From Candidatus Adiutrix sp. (GTDB lineage Bacteria; Desulfobacterota; Desulfarculia; Adiutricales; Adiutricaceae): a DNA stretch of 10,468 nt. The position numbers and the translations under genes are program-made. This document shows positions 1,869 to 10,361 of this stretch, piece by piece (the first letter of the stretch is position 1; every line of letters starts with the position of its first letter). The notes beneath the pieces are model-generated. The model saw only the letters and a list, made by a program, of their open reading frames with translations. It ran no database searches and was not told the origin of the DNA. The stretch covers positions 1 through 10,468 of the forward strand of contig JAITVE010000126.1 of the NCBI GenBank assembly GCA_031285975.1. Direction: 5' to 3'.

Positions 1869-1884
1869 TGGCACAGTCCTTGCT
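1869..1884 (+). promoter_or_regulatory. Sigma-54 (-24/-12) promoter of the catabolic operon
   Basis: TGGCAC (1869-1874), AGTCC, then TTGC (1880-1883) plus T matches the consensus TGGCAC-N5-TTGCW at every conserved base. The invariant GG (1870-1871) and GC (1882-1883) are separated by the required 10 bases. The expected start is near 1895, leaving a leader of about 60 nt before the lyase ATG at 1958. A divergent sigma-54 activator gene and upstream palindromes make this a strong call. The operon should be silent without activator and inducer. Confidence 0.9.
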
Positions 1885-1957
1885 TTGTCAAAAGCGAATT
1901 CGTACAGCGATTTCTATTGTAAACAGCTACCCTGTCAGCTTGTCGAAAGGGGATTAT

Positions 1958-3487
1958 ATGTCCAGAGCAGCAATCACGCTGGGCCCGAAAATTGGGCTGG
2001 CGGAATTTGTGGCCGTGGCCCGCTTTCAGGCTCCGGTGTCCTTTTCCGCTGAATATTGCGGGCGCGTGCGGCAGTCGCGGGAGTTGGTGGAGGGCTGGGT
2101 GGCCGAGGGGCGCCCCATGTACGGCATCACCACCGGCTTTGGGGCCATGTGCACCCAGGCCATTTCCCGCGAGGAGACGGCGCGGTTGCAGCGAAACATC
2201 GTTGTTTCCCATGCCGTTTCCGTGGGCGATCCCTTCACTGAGGAAGAAGCGCGGGCCACGCTGCTGATGGTGTTGCAAAATCTGGGGCAGGGTTACAGCG
2301 GCGTGCGCCTGGAAATTCTCGAGCGCTGCCGCGATTTTTTGAATCTGGGCCTGACCCCCTGGATGCCCCGCGAGGGCTCGGTGGGCTACCTGGCCCCCGA
2401 GGCCCACATGGTCATGAGCCTCACCGGGCAGGGCCGCGTATATTATGGCGGCGAACTCATGGACGCGCAGGAAGCCTTGCGCCGGGTCGGTTTGCCGCCG
2501 CTGGAACTGTCGTCGAAAGAGGGGCTGGCTCTCGTTTCCGGCACCACCTCGGCCACGGCTTTGGCCGCGCTGGCCCTCCACGATTTTATCAAAGCGGTGC
2601 GCTCGGCGGACGTTATCGCGGCCCTGAGTTTGGAAATTTTGCACGGGGTGACGCCCGCCTTTGACGCACGGGTCATGGCCGTGCGGCCCCACGAAGACCA
2701 GGCGGCCACGGCGGAAAACGTGCGGCGGGTGCTGGCCGAGTCCGCAGTCGTGGAAGCGTATAAAAACCAGCGGCTCCAGGACGCGCTTTCCCTGCGCACG
2801 GTGCCGCAGCTGCACGGCCCGGTGCGCAAGGCCTTCCGCGACGCCTTGGCAACCATAGAAACGGAGATAAATTCCTGCTGCGACAACCCCATTATCTGGC
2901 CGGACAAAACCGCGCCGGACGTGCTCTCCGCCTGCAACGCCGATTCCTCTTACGTGGGCCTGGCCATGGACTCGGCGGCCATTGCCGCCACCATGCTGGC
3001 CAAGATGTCCGAGCGGCGCAACAACAGATTGGTGGACGGCTCCCTGTCGGGCTACCCGTATTTTTTGGTGAAAAATCCCGGCCTCAACTCCGGCCTGATG
3101 ATTCCGCAATACGCCCAGGCGGGGCTGTTGAACGACATGCGCATTCTGGCCACCTCGGCCTGCATCGACAACACCAGCACCTGCGCCATGCAGGAAGACT
3201 ATGTGGCCATGGGCTACAACGCCGCCAAAAAGGCGCGGGTGGTGGCCGAAAAGCTGGAATACATCCTGGCCATTGAACTGATGTCGGTGCACGCCGCGCA
3301 AAGCTTTACGGACGCGGCTCTTCAGCGCGGCAAAGGCGGGCGGGCCCTGCTCGCCGAGATCGCCCGCCTGGCCCCCAGCCTGGAGAACGACGTGTTCCTC
3401 TACCCCCTCATTAACGACCTCAGGGATCTCATCCACTCCGGCCAGCTCATCGAGTTGGTCGAAGGGGAAATCGGGCCCCTGAAATAA
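1958..3487 (+). CDS. HAL/PAL-fold lyase lacking the MIO tripeptide (histidine ammonia-lyase homologue, possibly ergothionase-like)
   Basis: The protein has 509 residues, the usual length of bacterial histidine ammonia-lyase. The ATG is preceded by AAAGGGG. Family landmarks are clear: YGITTGFG (55-62), GSVG (140-143), LAPEAHM (145-151), EGLALVSGT (188-196), QDALSLRTVPQLHG (274-287), INSCCDNP (304-311), SERRNNRLVD (351-360), GLNSGLMI (375-382) and MQEDYVAM (411-418). In true HAL the segment reads GSVG-ASG-DLAP, and Ala-Ser-Gly cyclises to the MIO electrophile. Here GSVG runs straight into Tyr144-LAPEAH, so the triplet is absent. The catalytic Asn of LLNGT is Ser194, and the SGGNFHG segment is replaced by DSSYVG. 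The enzyme therefore cannot use MIO chemistry. The known precedent, as I recall it, is ergothionase, a HAL-fold enzyme that eliminates trimethylamine from ergothioneine by acid/base catalysis. A lyase releasing an N-methylated amine fits the MttB-like gene 12 nt downstream. The substrate is not proven, and a hutH label would probably be wrong. Confidence 0.85.
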   Translation: MSRAAITLGPKIGLAEFVAVARFQAPVSFSAEYCGRVRQSRELVEGWVAEGRPMYGITTGFGAMCTQAISREETARLQRNIVVSHAVSVGDPFTEEEARATLLMVLQNLGQGYSGVRLEILERCRDFLNLGLTPWMPREGSVGYLAPEAHMVMSLTGQGRVYYGGELMDAQEALRRVGLPPLELSSKEGLALVSGTTSATALAALALHDFIKAVRSADVIAALSLEILHGVTPAFDARVMAVRPHEDQAATAENVRRVLAESAVVEAYKNQRLQDALSLRTVPQLHGPVRKAFRDALATIETEINSCCDNPIIWPDKTAPDVLSACNADSSYVGLAMDSAAIAATMLAKMSERRNNRLVDGSLSGYPYFLVKNPGLNSGLMIPQYAQAGLLNDMRILATSACIDNTSTCAMQEDYVAMGYNAAKKARVVAEKLEYILAIELMSVHAAQSFTDAALQRGKGGRALLAEIARLAPSLENDVFLYPLINDLRDLIHSGQLIELVEGEIGPLK

Positions 3488-3499
3488 GGTGTGACGGCC

Positions 3500-4915
3500 A
3501 TGCGTTTTGTCAAAAATTTCACACGGCCCGATTTGGAGAAAATCCACCGGGCCACCCTGGAAATTTTAAGGGAAACCGGGGTGGATTTTCCCTCAGTCGA
3601 AGTTCTGAAGATATTTAAGGACAACGGTTTTCAGGTGGACGGCGAACGGGTTCGCATCAGCGAAGAGCAGTTGCAAAAAGCCCTGAGCGCCGCGCCGGAG
3701 GCCTTCGCCGTGCGGGCCCGCAACCCGGAAAACGACCTCAAGGTCGGCGGCCCGGATTTCATCCTCGGCCCCAGTTGCGGCAACACCGACATCATGGAGG
3801 CCGACGGCCAGCGGCGGCCCGGCACCTTGGCGGACTATGACCGGCTGGCCAAGCTGGTGCAGACTTCGCCCCTCAAAATGTTTTCCGGCGGGCTCTGCTA
3901 CCCCCGCGAAGTCCCCGGCCATTTGGCACATTTGTATATGCTGTTCAAGGACGTGACCATGACCGACCGGGTGGTCATGTGCAACATGGCCGCCGTGCAG
4001 AACGCCCGCGACTCATTGGACTACTTGGGCCTCGTCTTCGGCGGGCGGGCCGGGGTGGAAAAAGGGCCCTGCTCCATTTCCATCATCAACCCCTTTACGC
4101 CGCTCAAATATGCCGCCGACCAGGCCGAAGGACTGGTGCTTCTGGCCCGGGCAAACCAGCCCATGGTCATCACCAATATGATGATGCTGGGGGCCACCGC
4201 GCCCCTGTCCGTCCCCGGCGCGCTGGCCCTGGGCAACGCCGAAATCCTGGCCGGGCTGGTGCTGGCCCAGCTGGCGCGGCCGGGGGTCGGGGTGGTCTAT
4301 GGCGGCACCTCCTGCCCCATGGACATGAAAAGCATGGTGGCCACCCTGGGCACCCCCGAGGCCATTTGGCTGACTCGCGGCACTTTGGCCCTGGCGGATT
4401 TTTATAAAATCCCCAGCCGCAGCGGCGGCAGCCTCACCGACTCGCACCTGCCCGACGCCCAGGCCCTCATGGACGGCACGGCTGTTTTCATGAACGCCTT
4501 GTATGGCGGAGCCAATTTCATTCTCCACAGCTTCGGGATGCTCGGCGGCTACCAGAGCCTCAGCCTGGAAAAATTTATTCTGGATGAGGAAATGGCCCGC
4601 CTCACCCTGGCCACTTTAGACGCGCCGGAAGTGAGCGAGGCGACCATCAATCTGCCGCTCATCAAAAAAGTCGGGCCCGGCGGCGACTATTTAACCCAGG
4701 CCCACACCCTGAAGAACTGCCGTTCACTGTTCCGGCCCAGCTTCCTGAGCCGTGGCCCCTACGAGCACTGGGCGGCCCAGGGGCGGCCGGACAGCCTGGC
4801 CCAGGCTGCGGCTCATGTGGAAAAACGCCTGGCCGCCTGGGTGAAGCCGGACATCGACCCGCAATTGGAAAAAGCGTTGACAGACATGGCCCGCTCCAAA
4901 GGGGCCGAAATATAG
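3500..4915 (+). CDS. MttB-superfamily methyltransferase, non-pyrrolysine type
   Basis: The product belongs to the trimethylamine methyltransferase (MttB) superfamily. Non-pyrrolysine members such as MtgB demethylate quaternary amines and pass the methyl group to a corrinoid protein. I chose ATG 3500 (471 residues) because AGGTG at 3487-3491 is spaced 8 nt from it; a GTG at 3491 would add three residues but would overlap that site. Family signals include the N-terminal pattern LEKIHRATLEILRETGV (about 12-28), DGERVRISEEQLQKAL (47-62), a glycine/alanine-rich TIM-barrel core, GGTSCPMDMKSM (268-279) and the C-terminal GGDYLTQAHT (394-403) with FRPSFLSRGPYEHW (411-424). Length is normal for the family and there is no internal TAG, so pyrrolysine is not used; the gene does end in TAG. 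No corrinoid protein, reductive activator or MtbA-like second methyltransferase is present in the window. It is likely co-transcribed with the lyase. Confidence 0.88.
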   Translation: MRFVKNFTRPDLEKIHRATLEILRETGVDFPSVEVLKIFKDNGFQVDGERVRISEEQLQKALSAAPEAFAVRARNPENDLKVGGPDFILGPSCGNTDIMEADGQRRPGTLADYDRLAKLVQTSPLKMFSGGLCYPREVPGHLAHLYMLFKDVTMTDRVVMCNMAAVQNARDSLDYLGLVFGGRAGVEKGPCSISIINPFTPLKYAADQAEGLVLLARANQPMVITNMMMLGATAPLSVPGALALGNAEILAGLVLAQLARPGVGVVYGGTSCPMDMKSMVATLGTPEAIWLTRGTLALADFYKIPSRSGGSLTDSHLPDAQALMDGTAVFMNALYGGANFILHSFGMLGGYQSLSLEKFILDEEMARLTLATLDAPEVSEATINLPLIKKVGPGGDYLTQAHTLKNCRSLFRPSFLSRGPYEHWAAQGRPDSLAQAAAHVEKRLAAWVKPDIDPQLEKALTDMARSKGAEI

Positions 4916-4964
4916 GCACAGACCGACACGCGTGTTTGCATTCACTTGAAAAGGAAGGATTCAG

Positions 4965-6422
4965 ATGCTGAACATCTTTGACACCGCAGTGGTAATCGTG
5001 AGCTTCCTGTTGATTTTGAGGCTCGGCTACTATTTCGCCAAAACCTCTCACGACATGGACAGCTTCTACAAAGCCAACCGCTCGCTCCCCTGGTCGCTGG
5101 TCGTGGGCACCCTGATGGCCACCTGGTACGGCGGGGCGGGCACGGTGGGCACCGTGGGCTACGCCACCGGCATGGGTTTCGCCGGTTTCTTCATCTGGTC
5201 CATCGGGGCCCACGCCGTGCGCTTCCCCCTGGCCCTGTGGGTGGCCCCCCGCATCTCGGTCAAGGCCAAGGGCACCATCCCGGAACTGTTGCGCCTGAAC
5301 TACGGCAAAACAGCGGCCGTGTTCGGCTCCATCGTCATTGTGGTGAGCTGCCTGTCCATCGCCGAAGTGGCGGCCATCGGCTATGTTGGGGCCTCGGCCT
5401 GGAACGTGGACAAGCTGGTCTTGGCCATCGTGGCCGTGGGCATCGCCGTGGCCATCACCTGCATGGGCGGGCTGATGGGCCTGGCCGTGACCGACATGGT
5501 GTTTTTCTTCCTGATGGTGGTCTCGGTGGCGGCGGTTTTCCCGGCCATGTTCTTCGGCGTGGGCGGCTTTGACGGCATCTACGCCGCCCTTGAGCAGCCC
5601 GCCCCGGAAATGCTCACCGCCTTCGGCGGCATACCCTTTTTCCAAGCCGCCGTGCTCATCATCTTATGTATCAACCTCTATAAAGACCCGGCTTTCTACC
5701 AGCGCTTCGCGGCGGCCAACTCGCCCCGCACCGGCAAGCGCGCCATGCTCATGTGCTTTTCCATCTTCCTGTCCTTTGACGTGGTGACCATCATCACCGG
5801 CATGATTATCCGCACCGTTGACCCCGGCCTCACCGTGCAGCCGGAAGTCAATTACGTTTCCATGGTGCTGGCCAACCTCCCCACGGGTATGCGCGGCCTC
5901 TACATCGTGGGTATGCTGGGCGCCATCATCTCGACTTTGGACGGCTATTACCTGGTGGGCGGCGAAATCATCTCCAACGACATCATGTACATGCTGCGCG
6001 GCGACCGCGCCCTGCCCGACCGCCAGAGCATCTTCATCGCCCGCGTTTCCACCGTGGTTTTCGGCGTGGTGGGGCTGGCCGCAGCCTTCCAGTTCGACAT
6101 GGTGTATGACGCCTTTCTCTTCCTCAGCAGCCTGGGCATGACCATGCTCTTCGTGCCCATGATGGTGGCCCTGATGTACGAGGGCCGCAAAACCGACGTG
6201 GCGGGCCTGGCCAGCATGATCGTCGGCTCGGTGATCTGGATTGGCCTGAAACTCTTCCCCCTCACCACGGAAACCATGGGCACCGTTGACCCGGTCATCA
6301 TCGGCCTTCCGTTGTCGTTCCTGGCTTTCCTCATCGGCAACAATTTCGGCACCGACCTGAACGCCGCCCGCCAGCTCAAGGTTATCGACCAACTGCGGGC
6401 CAACACCGGCCAGGCCCGGTAA
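4965..6422 (+). CDS. Sodium:solute symporter (SSS family)
   Basis: The protein has 485 residues, dominated by about 12-13 hydrophobic helices, and starts at ATG 4965 after a strong AAGGAAGGA site. SSS-family features include an amphipathic DMDSFYKANRSLPW segment after the first helix, the small-residue GTLMATWYGGAGTVGTVGYA stretch of the second helix (sodium-site region), KGTIPELLRLNYGK and the LYKDPAFYQRFAAANS loop. It should import a small organic acid, amino acid or betaine with Na+ across the inner membrane. It sits 49 nt after the methyltransferase and 23 nt before a small membrane protein that probably partners it. The substrate is inferred only from neighbours: a betaine-like or N-methylated amino acid. 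It is presumably regulated with the whole operon. Confidence 0.92.
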   Translation: MLNIFDTAVVIVSFLLILRLGYYFAKTSHDMDSFYKANRSLPWSLVVGTLMATWYGGAGTVGTVGYATGMGFAGFFIWSIGAHAVRFPLALWVAPRISVKAKGTIPELLRLNYGKTAAVFGSIVIVVSCLSIAEVAAIGYVGASAWNVDKLVLAIVAVGIAVAITCMGGLMGLAVTDMVFFFLMVVSVAAVFPAMFFGVGGFDGIYAALEQPAPEMLTAFGGIPFFQAAVLIILCINLYKDPAFYQRFAAANSPRTGKRAMLMCFSIFLSFDVVTIITGMIIRTVDPGLTVQPEVNYVSMVLANLPTGMRGLYIVGMLGAIISTLDGYYLVGGEIISNDIMYMLRGDRALPDRQSIFIARVSTVVFGVVGLAAAFQFDMVYDAFLFLSSLGMTMLFVPMMVALMYEGRKTDVAGLASMIVGSVIWIGLKLFPLTTETMGTVDPVIIGLPLSFLAFLIGNNFGTDLNAARQLKVIDQLRANTGQAR

Positions 6423-6445
6423 GCATTCATCACAGGAGTTATGAT

Positions 6446-6757
6446 ATGAGCGAAAATATTGAACGCCAGGCCCAAGCCATGGAAACCGAAGAACAGCTGA
6501 CCATGGCCCAGCACAAGCAAGACCTTAAAGTGGAATGGTTCGGCGTGGACGGAGCCCTGGTTCTGCTCTACGTTCTCTTGGCCTGCTTTTACGGCTATGG
6601 GATGCTCAACCGGGTGGACGTCATCATCGGCTACTTCGCGCCCGGCGTGGCCATCCTCATCACCAGCGCGGTTTTCCTGAAATATTGCACCGAGGTTTTT
6701 CCCTTTGCCACCAAAAAGAAAAAACCGCCGGTGGACGCTTCAAAAGATCAGGGCTGA
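6446..6757 (+). CDS. Small two-helix membrane protein, probable accessory subunit of the symporter
   Basis: The product is a 103-residue protein started from ATG 6446 behind CAGGAG. A polar, Gln/Glu-rich N-terminus (1-34) is followed by two hydrophobic segments, about 36-56 (GALVLLYVLLACFYGYGML) and 58-81 (VDVIIGYFAPGVAILITSAVF), then a Lys-rich tail. Small two-helix partners directly linked to SSS transporters are known from the DUF997/DUF4212-type families; I cannot place this one in a named family. Adjacency (23 nt) and the membrane character support a role in symporter assembly or stability. Confidence 0.75.
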   Translation: MSENIERQAQAMETEEQLTMAQHKQDLKVEWFGVDGALVLLYVLLACFYGYGMLNRVDVIIGYFAPGVAILITSAVFLKYCTEVFPFATKKKKPPVDASKDQG

Positions 6758-6762
6758 GCGAC

Positions 6763-6794
6763 CGTTCCCGGCCGTTATCAGGCGGCCGGGAACG
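6763..6794. terminator. Intercistronic hairpin, possible partial terminator or mRNA-processing/stability element
   Basis: CGTTCCCGGCCG (6763-6774) and CGGCCGGGAACG (6783-6794) form a perfect 12-bp stem with an 8-nt loop, placed in the 61-nt gap after the transporter pair. It is followed by ATTGATTTG rather than a U run, so it is a poor intrinsic terminator. It could protect the upstream message 3' end or lower expression of the downstream four genes relative to the transporter. Confidence 0.6.
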
Positions 6795-6818
6795 ATTGAT
6801 TTGAATTGAGTGAAGACT

Positions 6819-7358
6819 ATGAAAATCAAGTGTTTTCCCATCACTATGGATACAAGCGAGGCCATGAAAATCGCCGAAGGCCGGGGCAATCTGCTGGGCC
6901 GCTGGGTCTTGCGCAACAAAAAAATCAGCCTGCGGGTCATGTATCTGGAAAGCCGTTACCTGACCTATGAGATGACCTACATCGACAGCCCGCTGGTGAA
7001 ATTGTTCAAAAAAACCGAGGGCCCGCCCGACCGGCAGCGCATCCGCGTGATGGTGGAAGGCACCACCTGCTCGGCGGCCTACGCGCCCAACGACATCCAC
7101 ACCATTGAAAAAGACGTGGATGAAAGCGATGTTCAGTTCACCTATTATGACGACTCGCGCCTCAGCGACGCGGGCGGCATCATGGCCAAGCGCATGGTGC
7201 GCCGCCAGCTGGGCCGCAACATGACCATCCGCCCCGTGGAAATGGAAAAAGTTTTCCGCCCCTTTTACATCGCCATCTACGGCGAGATGATCGACGGCGC
7301 CAAAGTGCGCTACCTGCCCATCCCCGCCGACGGCAACAACGTCACGCGATGTTTATAA
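6819..7358 (+). CDS. Uncharacterised 179-residue protein of the operon
   Basis: I do not recognise this family. ATG 6819 is preferred (GAGTG a few bases upstream); an in-frame GTG at 6810 would add three residues. The product is soluble-looking, with no signal peptide or membrane helix and rich in charged residues. It has an N-terminal MKIKCFPIT strand, a basic RNKKISLRVMYLESRYLTYEM segment about one fifth of the way in, a possible strand pair around RQRIRVMVEGTTCSAAYAP, and a C-terminal FRPFYIAIYGEM followed by KVRYLPIPADGNNVTR. No cysteine metal-binding set or nucleotide-binding motif is evident. Its place between transporter and RidA/AcnX, with spacings of 61 and 54 nt, says it serves the same pathway, perhaps as an accessory or scaffold protein. 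The function remains open. Confidence 0.8.
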   Translation: MKIKCFPITMDTSEAMKIAEGRGNLLGRWVLRNKKISLRVMYLESRYLTYEMTYIDSPLVKLFKKTEGPPDRQRIRVMVEGTTCSAAYAPNDIHTIEKDVDESDVQFTYYDDSRLSDAGGIMAKRMVRRQLGRNMTIRPVEMEKVFRPFYIAIYGEMIDGAKVRYLPIPADGNNVTRCL

Positions 7359-7412
7359 CGCATACGCAGCGCCGCCCCGTAACTGTTGATCGATAAAACG
7401 AAAGGACACACC

Positions 7413-7805
7413 ATGCCCAAAAGATTCGTCTCGAAAAAAATAGCCGCCTCCTCCAGCCCCCTGTCCACGGCGGTCATCGCCGGGAACACCGCCTATTTCT
7501 CGGGGATGCTCTCGATGGACCCGGCCAGCGGCGAACTGCGCCTCGGCAGCGCCTATGAAGAAACCGACCGCATCATCAACAACCTCAAAACCATGCTGGC
7601 CGAAATGGGGCGCGGCCTGGACAGCGTGGTCATGACCCAGTGCTTCCTGTCGAGCATGGAACATAACGACGGTTTCGGCGAAGCCTATGCCGCCCACTTC
7701 GGCGCCCTGCCCTGCCCCCCGGCCCGCAGAACCATTGTGGCCGTTGAGCTTTGGGGCGGCTGCAAAGTGGAAATAAGCTGCACCGTCTACCTCGGAGACG
7801 ACTGA
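7413..7805 (+). CDS. RidA-family (YjgF/YER057c/UK114) enamine/imine deaminase
   Basis: The product has 130 residues, the typical RidA length. ATG 7413 follows AAAGGA with 6-nt spacing; an upstream in-frame TTG at 7386 is less likely. Conserved elements include GNTAYFSGMLSMDPASGEL (24-42), the central helix with TDRIINNLKTMLAEMG (51-66) and the C-terminal PPARRTIVAVELW (102-114) and KVEISC (118-123). The Arg and Glu that bind the carboxylate and catalytic water in active RidA fall at 105 and 120, the E. coli positions, so hydrolytic activity is likely. RidA proteins release ammonia from 2-aminoacrylate-like enamines/imines. The next gene, 3 nt away, encodes an AcnX dehydratase, whose product from a 3-hydroxy amino acid would be exactly such an enamine. 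It is likely a pathway-dedicated paralogue rather than the housekeeping copy. Confidence 0.9.
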   Translation: MPKRFVSKKIAASSSPLSTAVIAGNTAYFSGMLSMDPASGELRLGSAYEETDRIINNLKTMLAEMGRGLDSVVMTQCFLSSMEHNDGFGEAYAAHFGALPCPPARRTIVAVELWGGCKVEISCTVYLGDD

Positions 7806-7808
7806 GGC

Positions 7809-9110
7809 ATGGTCAAACTCACTCCCCGCGAACAGGCCATGCTCTCCGGCCAGGATGGGCCCATGAAGCAAAGGGCCCTGGAAAACGTGGTTCAATACGC
7901 CGAGATTTTAGGCGCGGAATCCCTGTGCCCGGTGAGCCGGGCCACGGTTTTCTGCGGCCGCCACAGCTATTTGGAGGCCGCCGGTAATTTGAAGTATCAC
8001 GAGATGTTCAGCCGCGTGCAACTCGGCTCGGACGAGCTGTTGCCTCCCGCTGAAATCGAACGGCAATGCCTGGCCCAAACCTGCGTCAGCCCCTGCGAAA
8101 CCTTTGAGTACCAAGCCTTTCAGCAGAGCCATAGCGTTTTTGTGGAAAACCGGGAATATTTGGACGAAGCCCGAAAAATGGGCGTGGTGGAAGTGGGCAC
8201 CTGCGCCCCCTACCTCAACGGCTGGCTGCCGCTCCCCGGCGAACATTTCGTGACCACCGAATCGGGTATGACCATCCTGGGCAACAGCCTGTGGGCCGCC
8301 CGCTGCAATTCCGACGGCATTGAAGCGGCCTTCTGGTCGGCTCTCTGCGGCCGCACCCCGCGCTGGGGCCGCCACCTCACGGAAGGCCGCCGGGCCAACA
8401 TCCGGGTGGCGGTGGACTTCGTTCCTGAAACTATGATTGAGTGGGACTTGCTGGGCCGGGCCCTGGGCCTGCGGCTGCCGCTGCACTCCCAACCGGCGGT
8501 GACCATGGATTCTTCGGGCGCGGATTTCAACCGCCTGCGCCAATTCCTCACCGCGCTGGCGGTGTCCAGCAACTGCGAAATCTGCCACATCGTCGGCCTG
8601 ACCCCGGAAGCCCCGAGCCTGGCCGCCGCCTTTCAGGGGGAAGACCCGGCGGCCTATCCCGAGATACGCCTCAGCCGGGCCGACCTGGCCGAAACCTATG
8701 ACGCGGCTTGCGATCCTGGGCGCGGCCCCGTGGATTTGGTCAGCCTGGGCTGCCCCCATTACGATATCTATCAGCTTCAGGATGTCGCCCGCCTTTTGGA
8801 TGGCCGCCGCATAGCCCCCGGCGTGACGCTCCAGGTCTGGACGACCCTGGCCGTCAAGGCCCTGGCCGATTACAACGGTTTCACCGCCGCCATTGAAAAA
8901 GCCGGGGGCAGCCTTTACACGGCCTCCTGCCCGGTGACCATCAAGAGCGATTATCTGGCAAGCTTTCGCGGGGCCGTGTTCGACAGCCTCAAGCAGATTA
9001 CCAGCGCCCGCCTCAACCTGCGCGGCGCGGCCTACTACGCCACGGCTGCCCAGGCTGTGGACGCGGCCTGCAGCGGCGAATGGAAGGAGGCGAACCGATG
9101 GAAAGCCTAG
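7809..9110 (+). CDS. Aconitase X (AcnX) large/catalytic subunit, DUF521 type
   Basis: The product has 433 residues and starts at ATG 7809, 3 nt after the RidA stop; GGAG at 7794-7797 can serve as ribosome site. AcnX large subunits are Fe-S hydro-lyases; characterised members are cis-3-hydroxy-L-proline dehydratase and archaeal mevalonate-5-phosphate dehydratase. Family hallmarks are MLSGQDGPMKQRAL (11-24), TCAPYLNGWLPLPGEH (131-146), GNSLWAARCNSDG (158-170), GRTPRWGRHL (181-190), SLGCPHYDIYQL (312-323) and SCPV (373-376). Two regions depart from the pattern I recall: the early SAH.G motif reads VSRATVFCG, and the usual P-T-T-x-N segment reads AQTCVSPCETFE with an added CxxxC pair (92, 96). 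The C-terminal end of the large subunit is also atypical. These changes suggest a distinct clade with a different substrate. The small subunit overlaps by 13 nt, so translation is coupled. Confidence 0.9.
   Translation: MVKLTPREQAMLSGQDGPMKQRALENVVQYAEILGAESLCPVSRATVFCGRHSYLEAAGNLKYHEMFSRVQLGSDELLPPAEIERQCLAQTCVSPCETFEYQAFQQSHSVFVENREYLDEARKMGVVEVGTCAPYLNGWLPLPGEHFVTTESGMTILGNSLWAARCNSDGIEAAFWSALCGRTPRWGRHLTEGRRANIRVAVDFVPETMIEWDLLGRALGLRLPLHSQPAVTMDSSGADFNRLRQFLTALAVSSNCEICHIVGLTPEAPSLAAAFQGEDPAAYPEIRLSRADLAETYDAACDPGRGPVDLVSLGCPHYDIYQLQDVARLLDGRRIAPGVTLQVWTTLAVKALADYNGFTAAIEKAGGSLYTASCPVTIKSDYLASFRGAVFDSLKQITSARLNLRGAAYYATAAQAVDAACSGEWKEANRWKA
9084..9090 (+). promoter_or_regulatory. Shine-Dalgarno AAGGAGG inside the AcnX large-subunit gene
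   Basis: AAGGAGG lies 7 nt before ATG 9098 and fixes that codon as the small-subunit start. An earlier in-frame ATG at 9080 has no such site. It is embedded in the last codons of the large subunit, a layout typical of coupled subunit translation. Confidence 0.8.
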
Positions 9111-9520
9111 AAATTCAAGGCCGCCCCGCCATAGCCGGGCGGGCGGAGGGTGTGGCCCTGGTTTGCCCCGAAAGCCTCACCGGCTGGGGCGGCATTGACC
9201 CGGCCACCGGGGAAATCAAAGATTTGGCCAGCGGCAACCGGGGACAATCCATCGCCGGAAAAATTCTGGTCATTCCCGGCAGCCGGGGTTCCAACGGCTG
9301 GTCGTGCTATTACAGCATCACCCGGGTCAGCGGCGCGGCCCCCAGGGCGCTCGTCGTCACCCGCGTTGATTCCAGTTCCGCCGTGGCGGCGGTGGGCCTG
9401 AAAGTGCCCGCCGTGGTTGACTTTCCCGCTGACGCCGACCCCTGCCGCCTCATTCAAAACGGCGATTACGTTATTGTGGACGGCGATACCGGGCGGGTAA
9501 CCATTCGGCGCGGCGAATAA
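9098..9520 (+). CDS. Aconitase X (AcnX) small subunit, DUF126 swivel domain
   Basis: The product has 140 residues and overlaps the large subunit by 13 nt in another frame. It is the swivel (domain-4-like) part of the AcnX hydro-lyase, supplying the serine that acts in catalysis. Typical motifs are GRPAIAGRAEG (8-18), GWGGIDPATGEIKDL (29-43), RGQSIAGKILVIPGSRGS (48-65), APRALVVTRV (81-90), VPAVVDF (103-109) and NGDYVIVDGDTGRV (121-134). The expected Ser is in SRGSN (62-66). In many genomes the two subunits are fused; here they are separate. It is the last gene of the operon, with a strong hairpin 24 nt beyond the stop. Confidence 0.93.
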   Translation: MESLEIQGRPAIAGRAEGVALVCPESLTGWGGIDPATGEIKDLASGNRGQSIAGKILVIPGSRGSNGWSCYYSITRVSGAAPRALVVTRVDSSSAVAAVGLKVPAVVDFPADADPCRLIQNGDYVIVDGDTGRVTIRRGE

Positions 9521-9543
9521 AAAATCTCCGCATCCGTACACTG

Positions 9544-9569
9544 CAAAAGCCTCCTTTTGGGGGCTTTTG
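9544..9569. terminator. Bidirectional intrinsic terminator between converging genes
   Basis: CAAAAGCCTCC pairs with GGGGGCTTTTG across a TTTT loop, giving an 11-bp stem with one T-G wobble. The arms begin with an A tract and end with a T tract, so either strand presents a GC stem closing on U residues. It lies in the 82-nt gap between the AcnX small-subunit stop and the end of the methyltransferase on the opposite strand. It should end both transcripts. Confidence 0.75.
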
Positions 9570-9602
9570 GCGTATTGGGGGCAGTCTGTCAAACGATATG
9601 AA

Positions 9603-10361
9603 TCAAGCTTGCGCCGCTTGCATCTGGCGAAAATATTCGCACATGAAGACGGCCCCGGCCACGGAGACATTGAGGGATGAAACCTGGGCCCGGTTTTGGG
9701 GAATGGCCAGAAGTTCGTCGCAGGTTTTTTTGATGATGCGGCTCAGGCCCTGGCCTTCGGAGCCGAGCGCCAGCACCGTCCGGGGCGCGAATTGGTGCCG
9801 GAAAAGATTGCCCTCGGCCTCGCCGTCGGCCCCGGCCAGCCAAAAGCCGCGCTCCTGCAAGGTCTCCAGGGCGCGGCGCAAATTGACCACGCGCACCAGG
9901 GGCAAAACCTCGGCCGCTCCGGCGGCGGCATGGACGGCCGCCGGGGTCAGCGCGGCGGAACGCTCCCGCCCGGTCAGCACCCCCGCCGCCCCGAAAGCCA
10001 GGGCGCTGCGCATCAGGGCCCCGAGGTTGCCGGGGTCTTCCACCTGGTCGAGGGCCAGGACGAGCGCCGGCCCCTCCGCCGGCAAAGTTTCCAGAAAATC
10101 CTCAAAACCCACGTACTCCAAGGGATCAAAAAGGGCGACCAAACCCTGATGCCCCTCCCGGCCATAGACGCGATCCAGGGCCTGGCGGGGGGACATTTTG
10201 ACGGCCAGGCCGTGGGCGCGGGCCAGGGCGTAAATTTCGTCCAGGGCCGCGTTCCGATGGCGGCCCTCGGCGGCCATGAGGCTGCGGCAGCTTTTGGGGC
10301 GGCTTTTGAGAGCGGCCAGCACGGCGTTGAGCCCGCCCACAATTTCAGCATCTTGCTTCAC
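9603..10361 (-). CDS. rlmB: 23S rRNA (guanosine-2'-O-)-methyltransferase, RlmB/SpoU-TrmH family
   Basis: The product has 252 residues, with start GTG at 10361 behind AAGGA (spacing about 6 nt). The N-terminal substrate-binding domain (about 5-75) begins IVGGLNAVLAAL and ends with the characteristic GHQGLVALF (70-78). The C-terminal SPOUT domain carries the three family motifs: DQVEDPGNLGALMRSA (105-120), LALGSEGQGLS (194-204) and SLNVSVAGAVFMCEY (230-244), which form the knotted SAM site. RlmB methylates G2251 in the ribosomal P loop. Closely related SpoU members with other rRNA or tRNA targets cannot be excluded. Motif 3 is preceded by IPQNRAQVS rather than the more usual IPM.G.V.S. It is a housekeeping gene converging on the catabolic operon and unrelated to it. 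Confidence 0.9.
   Translation of the reverse strand: MKQDAEIVGGLNAVLAALKSRPKSCRSLMAAEGRHRNAALDEIYALARAHGLAVKMSPRQALDRVYGREGHQGLVALFDPLEYVGFEDFLETLPAEGPALVLALDQVEDPGNLGALMRSALAFGAAGVLTGRERSAALTPAAVHAAAGAAEVLPLVRVVNLRRALETLQERGFWLAGADGEAEGNLFRHQFAPRTVLALGSEGQGLSRIIKKTCDELLAIPQNRAQVSSLNVSVAGAVFMCEYFRQMQAAQA

Follow-up and report, generated by a model that had tools for sequence, protein, structure and literature searches.

The window studied here, a stretch of 10,468 nucleotides of Candidatus Adiutrix sp. (contig JAITVE010000126.1) from a genome of 2.45 Mb that is 78% complete, carries eight genes headed by a relative of histidine ammonia-lyase (HAL) without the site for the cofactor 4-methylideneimidazole-5-one (MIO). 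The eight reading frames are intact, lie on the + strand and span positions 1958-9520 (Table 1). In gene order the intergenic gaps are 12, 49, 23, 61, 54, 3 and -13 nt, and the Pfam domains are PF00221, PF06253, PF00474, none, none, PF01042, PF04412, and PF01989. This is the layout of eight same-strand genes, with gaps from 61 nt down to a 13-nt overlap, given in an original prediction that a model had made from the DNA letters alone. The single sigma-54 promoter predicted in front of the genes was also recovered, beside a divergent gene for a sigma-54 activator: it is the single perfect match to the consensus TGGCAC-N5-TTGCT, where 0.03 would be expected by chance. Downstream lies rlmB in the opposite orientation.

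Table 1. Features of the window, with positions, strand and supporting evidence.
Feature	Position	Strand	Evidence
Regulator with PAS, sigma-54 AAA activator and Fis HTH domains; 3' end cut by contig edge	1..1692	-	Pfam PF00158, PF25601, PF02954, PF00989
Sigma-54 promoter-like site TGGCACAGTCCTTGCT	1869..1884	+	perfect match; 0.03 expected by chance
MIO-less HAL-fold lyase, predicted histidine-betaine trimethylamine-lyase	1958..3487	+	PF00221 E 9.6e-158; ASG deleted; N195S/Y280L/F329A; HAL fold
Non-pyrrolysine MttB-superfamily methyltransferase	3500..4915	+	PF06253 E 1.6e-113; no in-frame stop
SSS-family transporter	4965..6422	+	PF00474 E 4.1e-14
Small partner of SSS transporter, 103 aa	6446..6757	+	no family match; same place beside SSS in Smac51 and Synergistota loci
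Strong intergenic hairpin, GC-rich 14-bp stem, no T tail	6763..6794	+	-30 kcal/mol, z -6.3
Conserved 179-aa protein without assigned function	6819..7358	+	37 homologues besides itself; no Pfam/NCBIfam match
RidA-family enamine/imine deaminase	7413..7805	+	PF01042 E 9.4e-21; PAR motif present
Aconitase X (AcnX), large subunit	7809..9110	+	PF04412 E 3.7e-84; Fe-S cysteines present
AcnX, small (swivel) subunit	9098..9520	+	PF01989 E 5.9e-20; aligned to TkAcnX small chain and AtAcnX N-terminus
Hairpin 3' of operon, possible (bidirectional) terminator	9544..9569	+	-20.1 kcal/mol, z -4.2; absent from terminator scan list

A terminator had likewise been predicted at the end of the operon. A hairpin is present there, but no T run follows it and it is missing from the output of the terminator scan, so that a terminator is only plausible. 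A stronger hairpin, overlooked in the original prediction, stands between the genes for the small transporter partner and the 179-amino-acid (aa) protein and may be an attenuator or processing site. A scan for sigma-70-type promoters gave 6 sites where 2.1 were expected, among them one upstream of the operon (1715-1744, 11/12) and two before the RidA gene (7120 and 7264, both 9/12). Because of the internal hairpin, the sigma-70-type sites and the T-less end hairpin, we accept the predicted single, uninterrupted transcript only with reservation.

The lyase has the PF00221 domain and the HAL fold. By sequence it stands nearest to HutH/HAL (E 1.3e-81), and its AlphaFold2 model (pLDDT 89.5) matches HAL 1eb4 with a TM score of 0.92; against the hutH model TIGR01225 it scores 471.7 bits, below the cut-off of 539.15. 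The Ala-Ser-Gly (ASG) tripeptide needed for MIO, which may also be Thr- or Cys-Ser-Gly, is deleted exactly: GSVGASGDLAPLAH of HAL aligns to GSVG---YLAPEAH of the window lyase. The same deletion, GSVG-YL.P(E/D)AH, is found in 119/120 best homologues, the window copy counted. In a tree of 82 rows, which left out most SVGYLSPE rows, rows shorter than 450 aa and two duplicates, the 45 rows with the deletion form one branch (the deletion clade; support 97/95, 98% of bootstraps). The five rows of the ergothionase type form their own branch (100/100), and the window lyase does not group with the ergothionase of Treponema denticola.

Active-site positions were tallied without two duplicates and one fragment, with the residue numbers and roles of HAL; matched PDB titles name the mutants Y280F, F329A, and D145A. 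In the deletion clade, position 195 is Ser in 58/73 rows, position 280 Leu or Met in 70/73, and position 329 Ala, Pro or Cys in 70/73, and 69/73 rows keep H83, R283 and E414 together (the exceptions are two rows with Cys83 and two fragments). MIO-type rows kept N195 and Y280 in 32/32 cases. The ergothionase type has L280 and Phe329 in 5/5 rows and S195 in 3/5. Its MIO site is one residue shorter (E-GD) and that of the deletion clade three residues shorter (Y---L); these different lesions on separate branches suggest that MIO was lost twice independently. The retained H83, R283 and E414 point to an imidazole substrate.

The surroundings of the lyase were compared between 66 loci of its relatives found in a genome scan (by title mostly Bacillota, with one Synergistaceae, one Fusobacterium and the genome Smac51) and 29 control loci, which hold ASG-type relatives, belong to the phylum of the window and have 1.5 kb of flank only. 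The ASG type was seen in 28/29 control loci, and one (L107) was an unclassified fragment. A transporter of the BCCT family (for betaine, carnitine and choline) lay within 1.5 kb in 48/66 lyase loci and in 0/29 controls (Fisher p = 2e-12); this comparison sets mostly Bacillota loci against another phylum, and its statistic ignores relatedness. A BCCT or SSS transporter was in reach in 54/66 loci, and 7 of the other 12 have less than 0.1 kb of sequence before the lyase match. Homologues of the window activator, a large family counted with no identity floor, occurred in the stretches of 39/66 relatives and within 1.5 kb in 5/66. Genes of the histidine utilization (hut) pathway were present in 10/66 loci. 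In two Siminovitchia the order hutU, hutI, arginase-family gene, BCCT, lyase makes a hut cluster with the BCCT-lyase pair in the place of hutH. The predicted tie between the lyase and uptake of an N-methylated compound is thus upheld by the BCCT and hut neighbours.

From a quaternary ammonium leaving group, an imidazole side chain and the urocanase gene present in the same genome, we infer that the lyase is likely a trimethylamine-lyase for histidine betaine (hercynine), yielding urocanate and trimethylamine. Substrates, reactions and regulation are here predicted from sequence and gene context. MIO would be dispensable for such an enzyme, since its substrate, like that of ergothionase, offers a good leaving group from the start in the quaternary trimethylammonium; the active-site changes shared with ergothionase, together with the gene context, argue for a MIO-free elimination. 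Urocanate would then enter the ordinary hut route. Among the candidate substrates of the original prediction, the histidine betaines fit the betaine transporter and the hut links, and betaines of proline or hydroxyproline found no specific support. Within the histidine betaines we place ergothioneine second to hercynine, because an ergothionase-type enzyme occurs in the same stretch as a deletion-clade lyase in five loci (L014, L031, L062, L065, and L280); the sharing of a stretch by both types also means that the two clades probably differ in substrate.

Several observations weigh against this assignment. N195 is kept in 15/73 deletion-clade rows and in 4/15 Synergistota lyases, and 3/73 rows keep the HAL residues at 195, 280 and 329 together, so that the clade may hold several activities. 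Only the ten loci mentioned have hut genes in reach, and HutU within 1.5 kb is commoner in the ASG-type controls (13/29) than in the lyase loci (1/66). A second deletion-clade lyase of Smac51, 66% identical, sits in a plain regulator-lyase-BCCT locus, for which reason the window-type lyase could have moved to another substrate.

The other members of what we call module A are the SSS transporter, its 103-aa partner and the 179-aa protein. The transporter belongs to its class by PF00474, its structural relatives being distant choline and glucose SSS structures; transport and substrate are predicted, and with the small partner it would import the betaine. Neither small protein matched a Pfam or NCBIfam family, and the AlphaFold2 model of the 179-aa protein (pLDDT 89) gave no clear fold match in the PDB. 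When the 179-aa protein was used as a marker across 183 Synergistota genomes, it was found in 16 of them, in 17 loci that include near-duplicates (L282-L285, L288-L289) and hence are not independent events. An SSS gene was beside it in 17/17 loci and a deletion-clade lyase in the stretch of 15/17; 14/17 held module A alone, with no AcnX or MttB match. In one of the two loci without a lyase (L290) the contig breaks off within the gene. The other (L248, genome G944) has AcnX, RidA, MttB and a corrinoid protein instead of the lyase, and the same genome has a second cluster (L281) with SSS, 179-aa-type protein and lyase. In Bacillota, the trio of transporter, 179-aa-type protein and lyase occurs in the stretches of L038, L041, L043, and L059.

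Module B consists of the genes for MttB, RidA and AcnX. The window MttB has PF06253 and no in-frame amber codon, as expected of a non-pyrrolysine MttB, and its nearest solved structure is glycine betaine methyltransferase (9yce/2qne, E about 1e-100). PMC8604678 describes characterised proteins of this kind as demethylating specific quaternary amines, with one corrinoid protein serving several. The genome of the window has five MTTB matches without in-frame stops and eight corrinoid-protein matches (PF02607), most in open frames of 211-246 codons and none in the operon; in G944 a corrinoid protein is found beside MttB. RidA has PF01042 and keeps the PAR motif with its catalytic Arg. The two AcnX chains, large and swivel small, keep the three Fe-S cysteines and the Glu129, Ser130 and Lys530 positions, with Ser at the Tyr534 position. 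At the Asp203 position the window has Phe, and Phe or Tyr is found in 120/120 subfamily matches listed. According to PMC8184944, which also gives the other residue roles, Asp203 contacts the substrate nitrogen in AtAcnX; the AtAcnX chain aligned (7d2r) carries Cys449 and Val510, a mutant described in the same source. The window AcnX thus lacks this mark of the hydroxyproline enzyme, and its score against NF051439 is 134 bits (cut-off 700). The Asn53 phosphate-binding position is Tyr in 119/120 matches listed and Phe otherwise. A gene of the DapA family (PF00701) is close to one AcnX relative (L179, 37%), in a cluster that by eye looks of the hydroxyproline type.

Across 28 loci of the AcnX subfamily, including two genomes that each gave two loci in close copies so that the counts are not independent, the genes within 8 kb included MttB in 10, RidA in 12, OCD (OCD/mu-crystallin) in 9, BCCT in 4 and a corrinoid protein in 5. 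The orders AcnX large-small-BCCT-MttB-RidA (L177) and SSS-179-aa-type protein-AcnX-RidA-MttB-corrinoid protein (L248) are examples. When six stretches with more distantly related AcnX (26-31% identity) were scanned in the same way, MttB, RidA, OCD, BCCT or a corrinoid protein turned up in 0/6. RidA hydrolyses imines, and OCD-type enzymes can reduce them. Because one or the other accompanies AcnX in the stretches of 16/28 loci, the product of this AcnX subfamily is most likely an imine formed out of a 3-hydroxy amino acid, and the step of this type that had been deduced originally from AcnX plus RidA agrees with the survey. On the other side, 12/28 loci have neither RidA nor OCD. The MttB proteins near other AcnX genes are only 23-36% identical to the window MttB outside Smac51 (76%), 32% in Synergistota genome G970, and may therefore have different substrates. 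The aromatic residue at the Asp203 position is also present where no MttB is near, and therefore does not indicate an N-methylated substrate.

The original prediction had proposed a search for co-occurrence of the lyase, MttB-like and AcnX genes across genomes, and such co-occurrence was found. Smac51 carries the complete set of eight together with the regulator, at identities of 68-91%, and has a D-2-hydroxyacid dehydrogenase inserted; a hutU (65% to the Siminovitchia hutU) and a hutI-like gene (36%) begin about 5 kb past the operon. In G970, seven of the eight genes lie on one strand in another order: AcnX large (53%), AcnX small (68%), MttB (32%), a 4Fe-4S protein, SSS (51%), the small partner, the 179-aa-type protein (29%) and the lyase (46%). 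RidA was not found in this stretch, which weighs against the reading given below. On an Acidaminococcus contig, three MIO-less lyases and SSS come immediately after the end of AcnX large and AcnX small. Seven HAL-family genes were counted in Smac51. Besides the plain regulator-lyase-BCCT locus they include another deletion-clade lyase, accompanied by SSS and regulator, one enzyme of the ergothionase type and one ordinary HAL.

We consider it about evenly balanced that the operon degrades N-methylated amino acids by two modules behind one SSS transporter pair, the lyase acting on hercynine and MttB, AcnX and RidA acting on a 3-hydroxylated betaine. In module B, MttB would hand a methyl group of this betaine to a free corrinoid protein of the same genome, AcnX would take the alpha-H and beta-OH off the amino acid left behind, and the enamine or imine so formed would be hydrolysed by RidA to a 2-oxo acid, which in Smac51 could be reduced by the inserted dehydrogenase. 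The divergent sigma-54 activator would switch on both modules. By analogy, module A is predicted to work as ergothionase does, and module B to combine quaternary-amine demethylation with a step of the hydroxyproline-dehydratase type.

For the lyase, the most serious alternative is that the deletion clade is a second kind of ergothioneine lyase, a minority possibility with some weight. The N195S and Y280L changes are those of ergothionase, and PMC13405746 reports degradation of ergothioneine by Clostridium symbiosum, which carries a deletion-clade lyase. However, C. symbiosum also has, about 3 kb away, an ergothionase-type enzyme (E 4e-133 to T. denticola ergothionase), one of the five cases in which the two types share a stretch, and the clades differ at position 329, with Phe in every ergothionase-type row. 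It is quite improbable that the lyase is a MIO-independent ammonia-lyase for histidine itself, replacing HutH. The kept substrate residues H83, R283 and E414 would suit such an enzyme, and three loci (L051, L052, and L011) have the lyase with hutU-hutI and no second lyase in the stretch, yet with a free amine the HAL reaction depends on the electrophile MIO, betaine transporters sit beside the lyase, and other genomes with the lyase retain ordinary ASG-type HALs (L111, L201, L008, and L034).

For the operon as a whole, the original prediction had favoured one linear route for one compound, in which all eight products would act on a single beta-hydroxylated histidine-type betaine, from its import through demethylation and dehydration to cleavage. 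The presence of a single operon and a single divergent sigma-54 activator fits this, and so do the interleaving of the modules, with MttB between lyase and SSS, and the recurrence of the set in two phyla (Smac51, and G970 in another order and without RidA), which speaks for a single substrate; both tell against two separate modules. On the other hand, either set, transporter-179-aa-lyase or MttB-AcnX-RidA, can be found in the absence of its counterpart, G944 keeps them in separate clusters, each with its own SSS and 179-aa-type protein, and we know of no natural beta-hydroxylated histidine-type betaine. These observations do not support the linear route, which is, in our judgement, rather unlikely. 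Even less credible, at the bottom of our scale, is that the modules became neighbours by chance insertion with no metabolic link. Their separability, the low identity of MttB between the window and G970 sets and the sigma-70-like sites before RidA would agree with it; the same combination in two phyla with differing gene order, and the interleaved rather than adjoining modules in the window, would not. We retain the two-module reading.

Every protein family with a name in the operon has known members. HutH (1b8f/1eb4, 7tqr) is nearest to the lyase in sequence and fold and shares H83, R283 and E414, but the window lyase lacks ASG and hence MIO, is changed at N195, Y280 and F329, and its usual neighbours are BCCT or SSS. 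Ergothionase, the ergothioneine trimethylamine-lyase of T. denticola (6s7j/6s7q), which converts ergothioneine into thiourocanate and trimethylamine, shares the HAL fold without MIO, N195S, Y280L and the HAL-type H83 and E414; it differs in clade and MIO-site lesion and in having Phe329 where the window lyase has Ala329, its type is present as an additional enzyme in five stretches that also hold a deletion-clade lyase, and the window lyase is 29% identical to its C. symbiosum orthologue. PMC13405746 states that ergothionase lacks MIO. The HAL homologue of the original prediction does have its MIO site deleted, and MIO-less HAL homologues have a precedent in ergothionase, although in another clade. 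The window MttB resembles the MttB superfamily (MtgB 2qne/9yce, MtpB, MtcB, and MtyB) in PF06253, in lacking an in-frame amber codon and in the corrinoid proteins of its genome, and differs in that its operon has no corrinoid protein or methyltransferase partner. AcnX resembles TkAcnX in having PF04412 and PF01989 as two chains with the Fe-S cysteine, Glu, Ser and Lys positions kept; it differs from AtAcnX (Asp203) and TkAcnX (Ala47) in the Phe or Tyr of its subfamily at that position, and from known AcnX at the Asn53 position. Three assignments were rejected: MIO enzyme by the missing ASG, ergothionase-clade member by the tree branch and hydroxyproline AcnX by the Phe at the Asp203 position.

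Among the papers listed in capped literature searches on ergothionase and MIO, AcnX, MttB, HAL with BCCT, hercynine and ergothioneine lyases of gut bacteria, none described the lyase clade or the operon by title or start of abstract, which is weak evidence of absence since most subscription journals lay outside coverage. Of the papers covered, those matching several of the topics AcnX, MttB, RidA, and BCCT did not mention 'aconitase X' or 'RidA'. Apparently new are the link to transporters, the combination of genes and the separate loss of MIO.

Gut trimethylamine is tied to cardiovascular risk, and inventories of its sources target known genes such as choline TMA-lyase. In one such gene inventory (PMC10653893), a word search of the main text found no ergothioneine, ergothionase, hercynine or histidine. 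Deletion-clade lyases lie beside betaine transporters in loci of C. symbiosum, Blautia, Acidaminococcus, and Flintibacter, under the database names histidine ammonia-lyase or HAL/PAL/TAL family ammonia-lyase. A bolder reading, which we offer tentatively and would sooner doubt than adopt, is that the deletion clade is an unrecognised class of hercynine trimethylamine-lyases whose loss of MIO was independent of that in ergothionase. Gut Clostridia, Blautia, Acidaminococcus, and Synergistota would then have in it a hidden source of trimethylamine, and in the window it would be coupled to a new route by way of corrinoid, AcnX and RidA, in which a 3-hydroxy betaine is stripped and dehydrated. If true, a second MIO-less lyase clade would add a gut source of trimethylamine that may be overlooked under ammonia-lyase names. 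The two clades, with the same two substitutions and different lesions, would offer a natural comparison for MIO-free lyase chemistry, and for the AcnX subfamily a role alongside MttB, RidA and corrinoid proteins would become testable.

Further observations concern the lyase family. Four deletion-clade lyases without ASG retain Asn195, Tyr280 and Phe329 of HAL (L053, L068, L042, and L202). Tandem pairs of deletion-clade lyases occur in L007, L037, L039, L045, L047, L050, and L054, mostly Blautia, the second copy having Asn195 and Pro329. Two HAL-family lyases of Smac51 have Cys-Ser-Gly at the MIO site, one (L209) near AcnX, OCD, BCCT and MttB genes and the other (L210) near BCCT and MttB genes. 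The lyase/SSS module is repeatedly accompanied by a protein of 280-390 aa that the window operon lacks (L016, L041, L043, L239, L276-L281, L286, L287, and L290); the two examples scanned, L016 and L239, have 4Fe-4S domains at the C-terminus. In genome G844 a single cluster (L280, 5890-16336) brings together a lyase of the deletion clade and one of the ergothionase type with a 4Fe-4S protein, a 179-aa-type protein, SSS and a molybdenum-hydroxylase-like gene.

Others concern MttB and AcnX; among the neighbours named here, TRAP transporters, the large subunits of xanthine dehydrogenase type and, above, the hydroxyproline-type cluster were named by eye. MttB genes adjoin xanthine-dehydrogenase-type, molybdenum-hydroxylase-like genes in L109 (15217-19900) and L210 (7793-15018) of Smac51 and in L204 of the genome of the window (6897-9906), in one case with a HAL-family lyase in between; a possible role is in the use of N-methylated heteroaromatic compounds. 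Eight other Synergistota AcnX loci (L243, L244, L249, L250, L251, L253, L254, and L256) have RidA and/or OCD and in most a TRAP-like transporter, and share a protein resembling, by eye, cysteine desulfidase/serine dehydratase. In the AcnX large gene of L248 (9535-8228, - strand), codon 92 is an in-frame TGA and a stem-loop (-15.6 kcal/mol) comes after it, which makes this a candidate selenocysteine AcnX. In this column AcnX relatives have Cys in 112/142, Asp in 29 and Thr in 1; the window has Cys92, and 7/8 of the other Synergistota loci have Asp, L256 being unread there.

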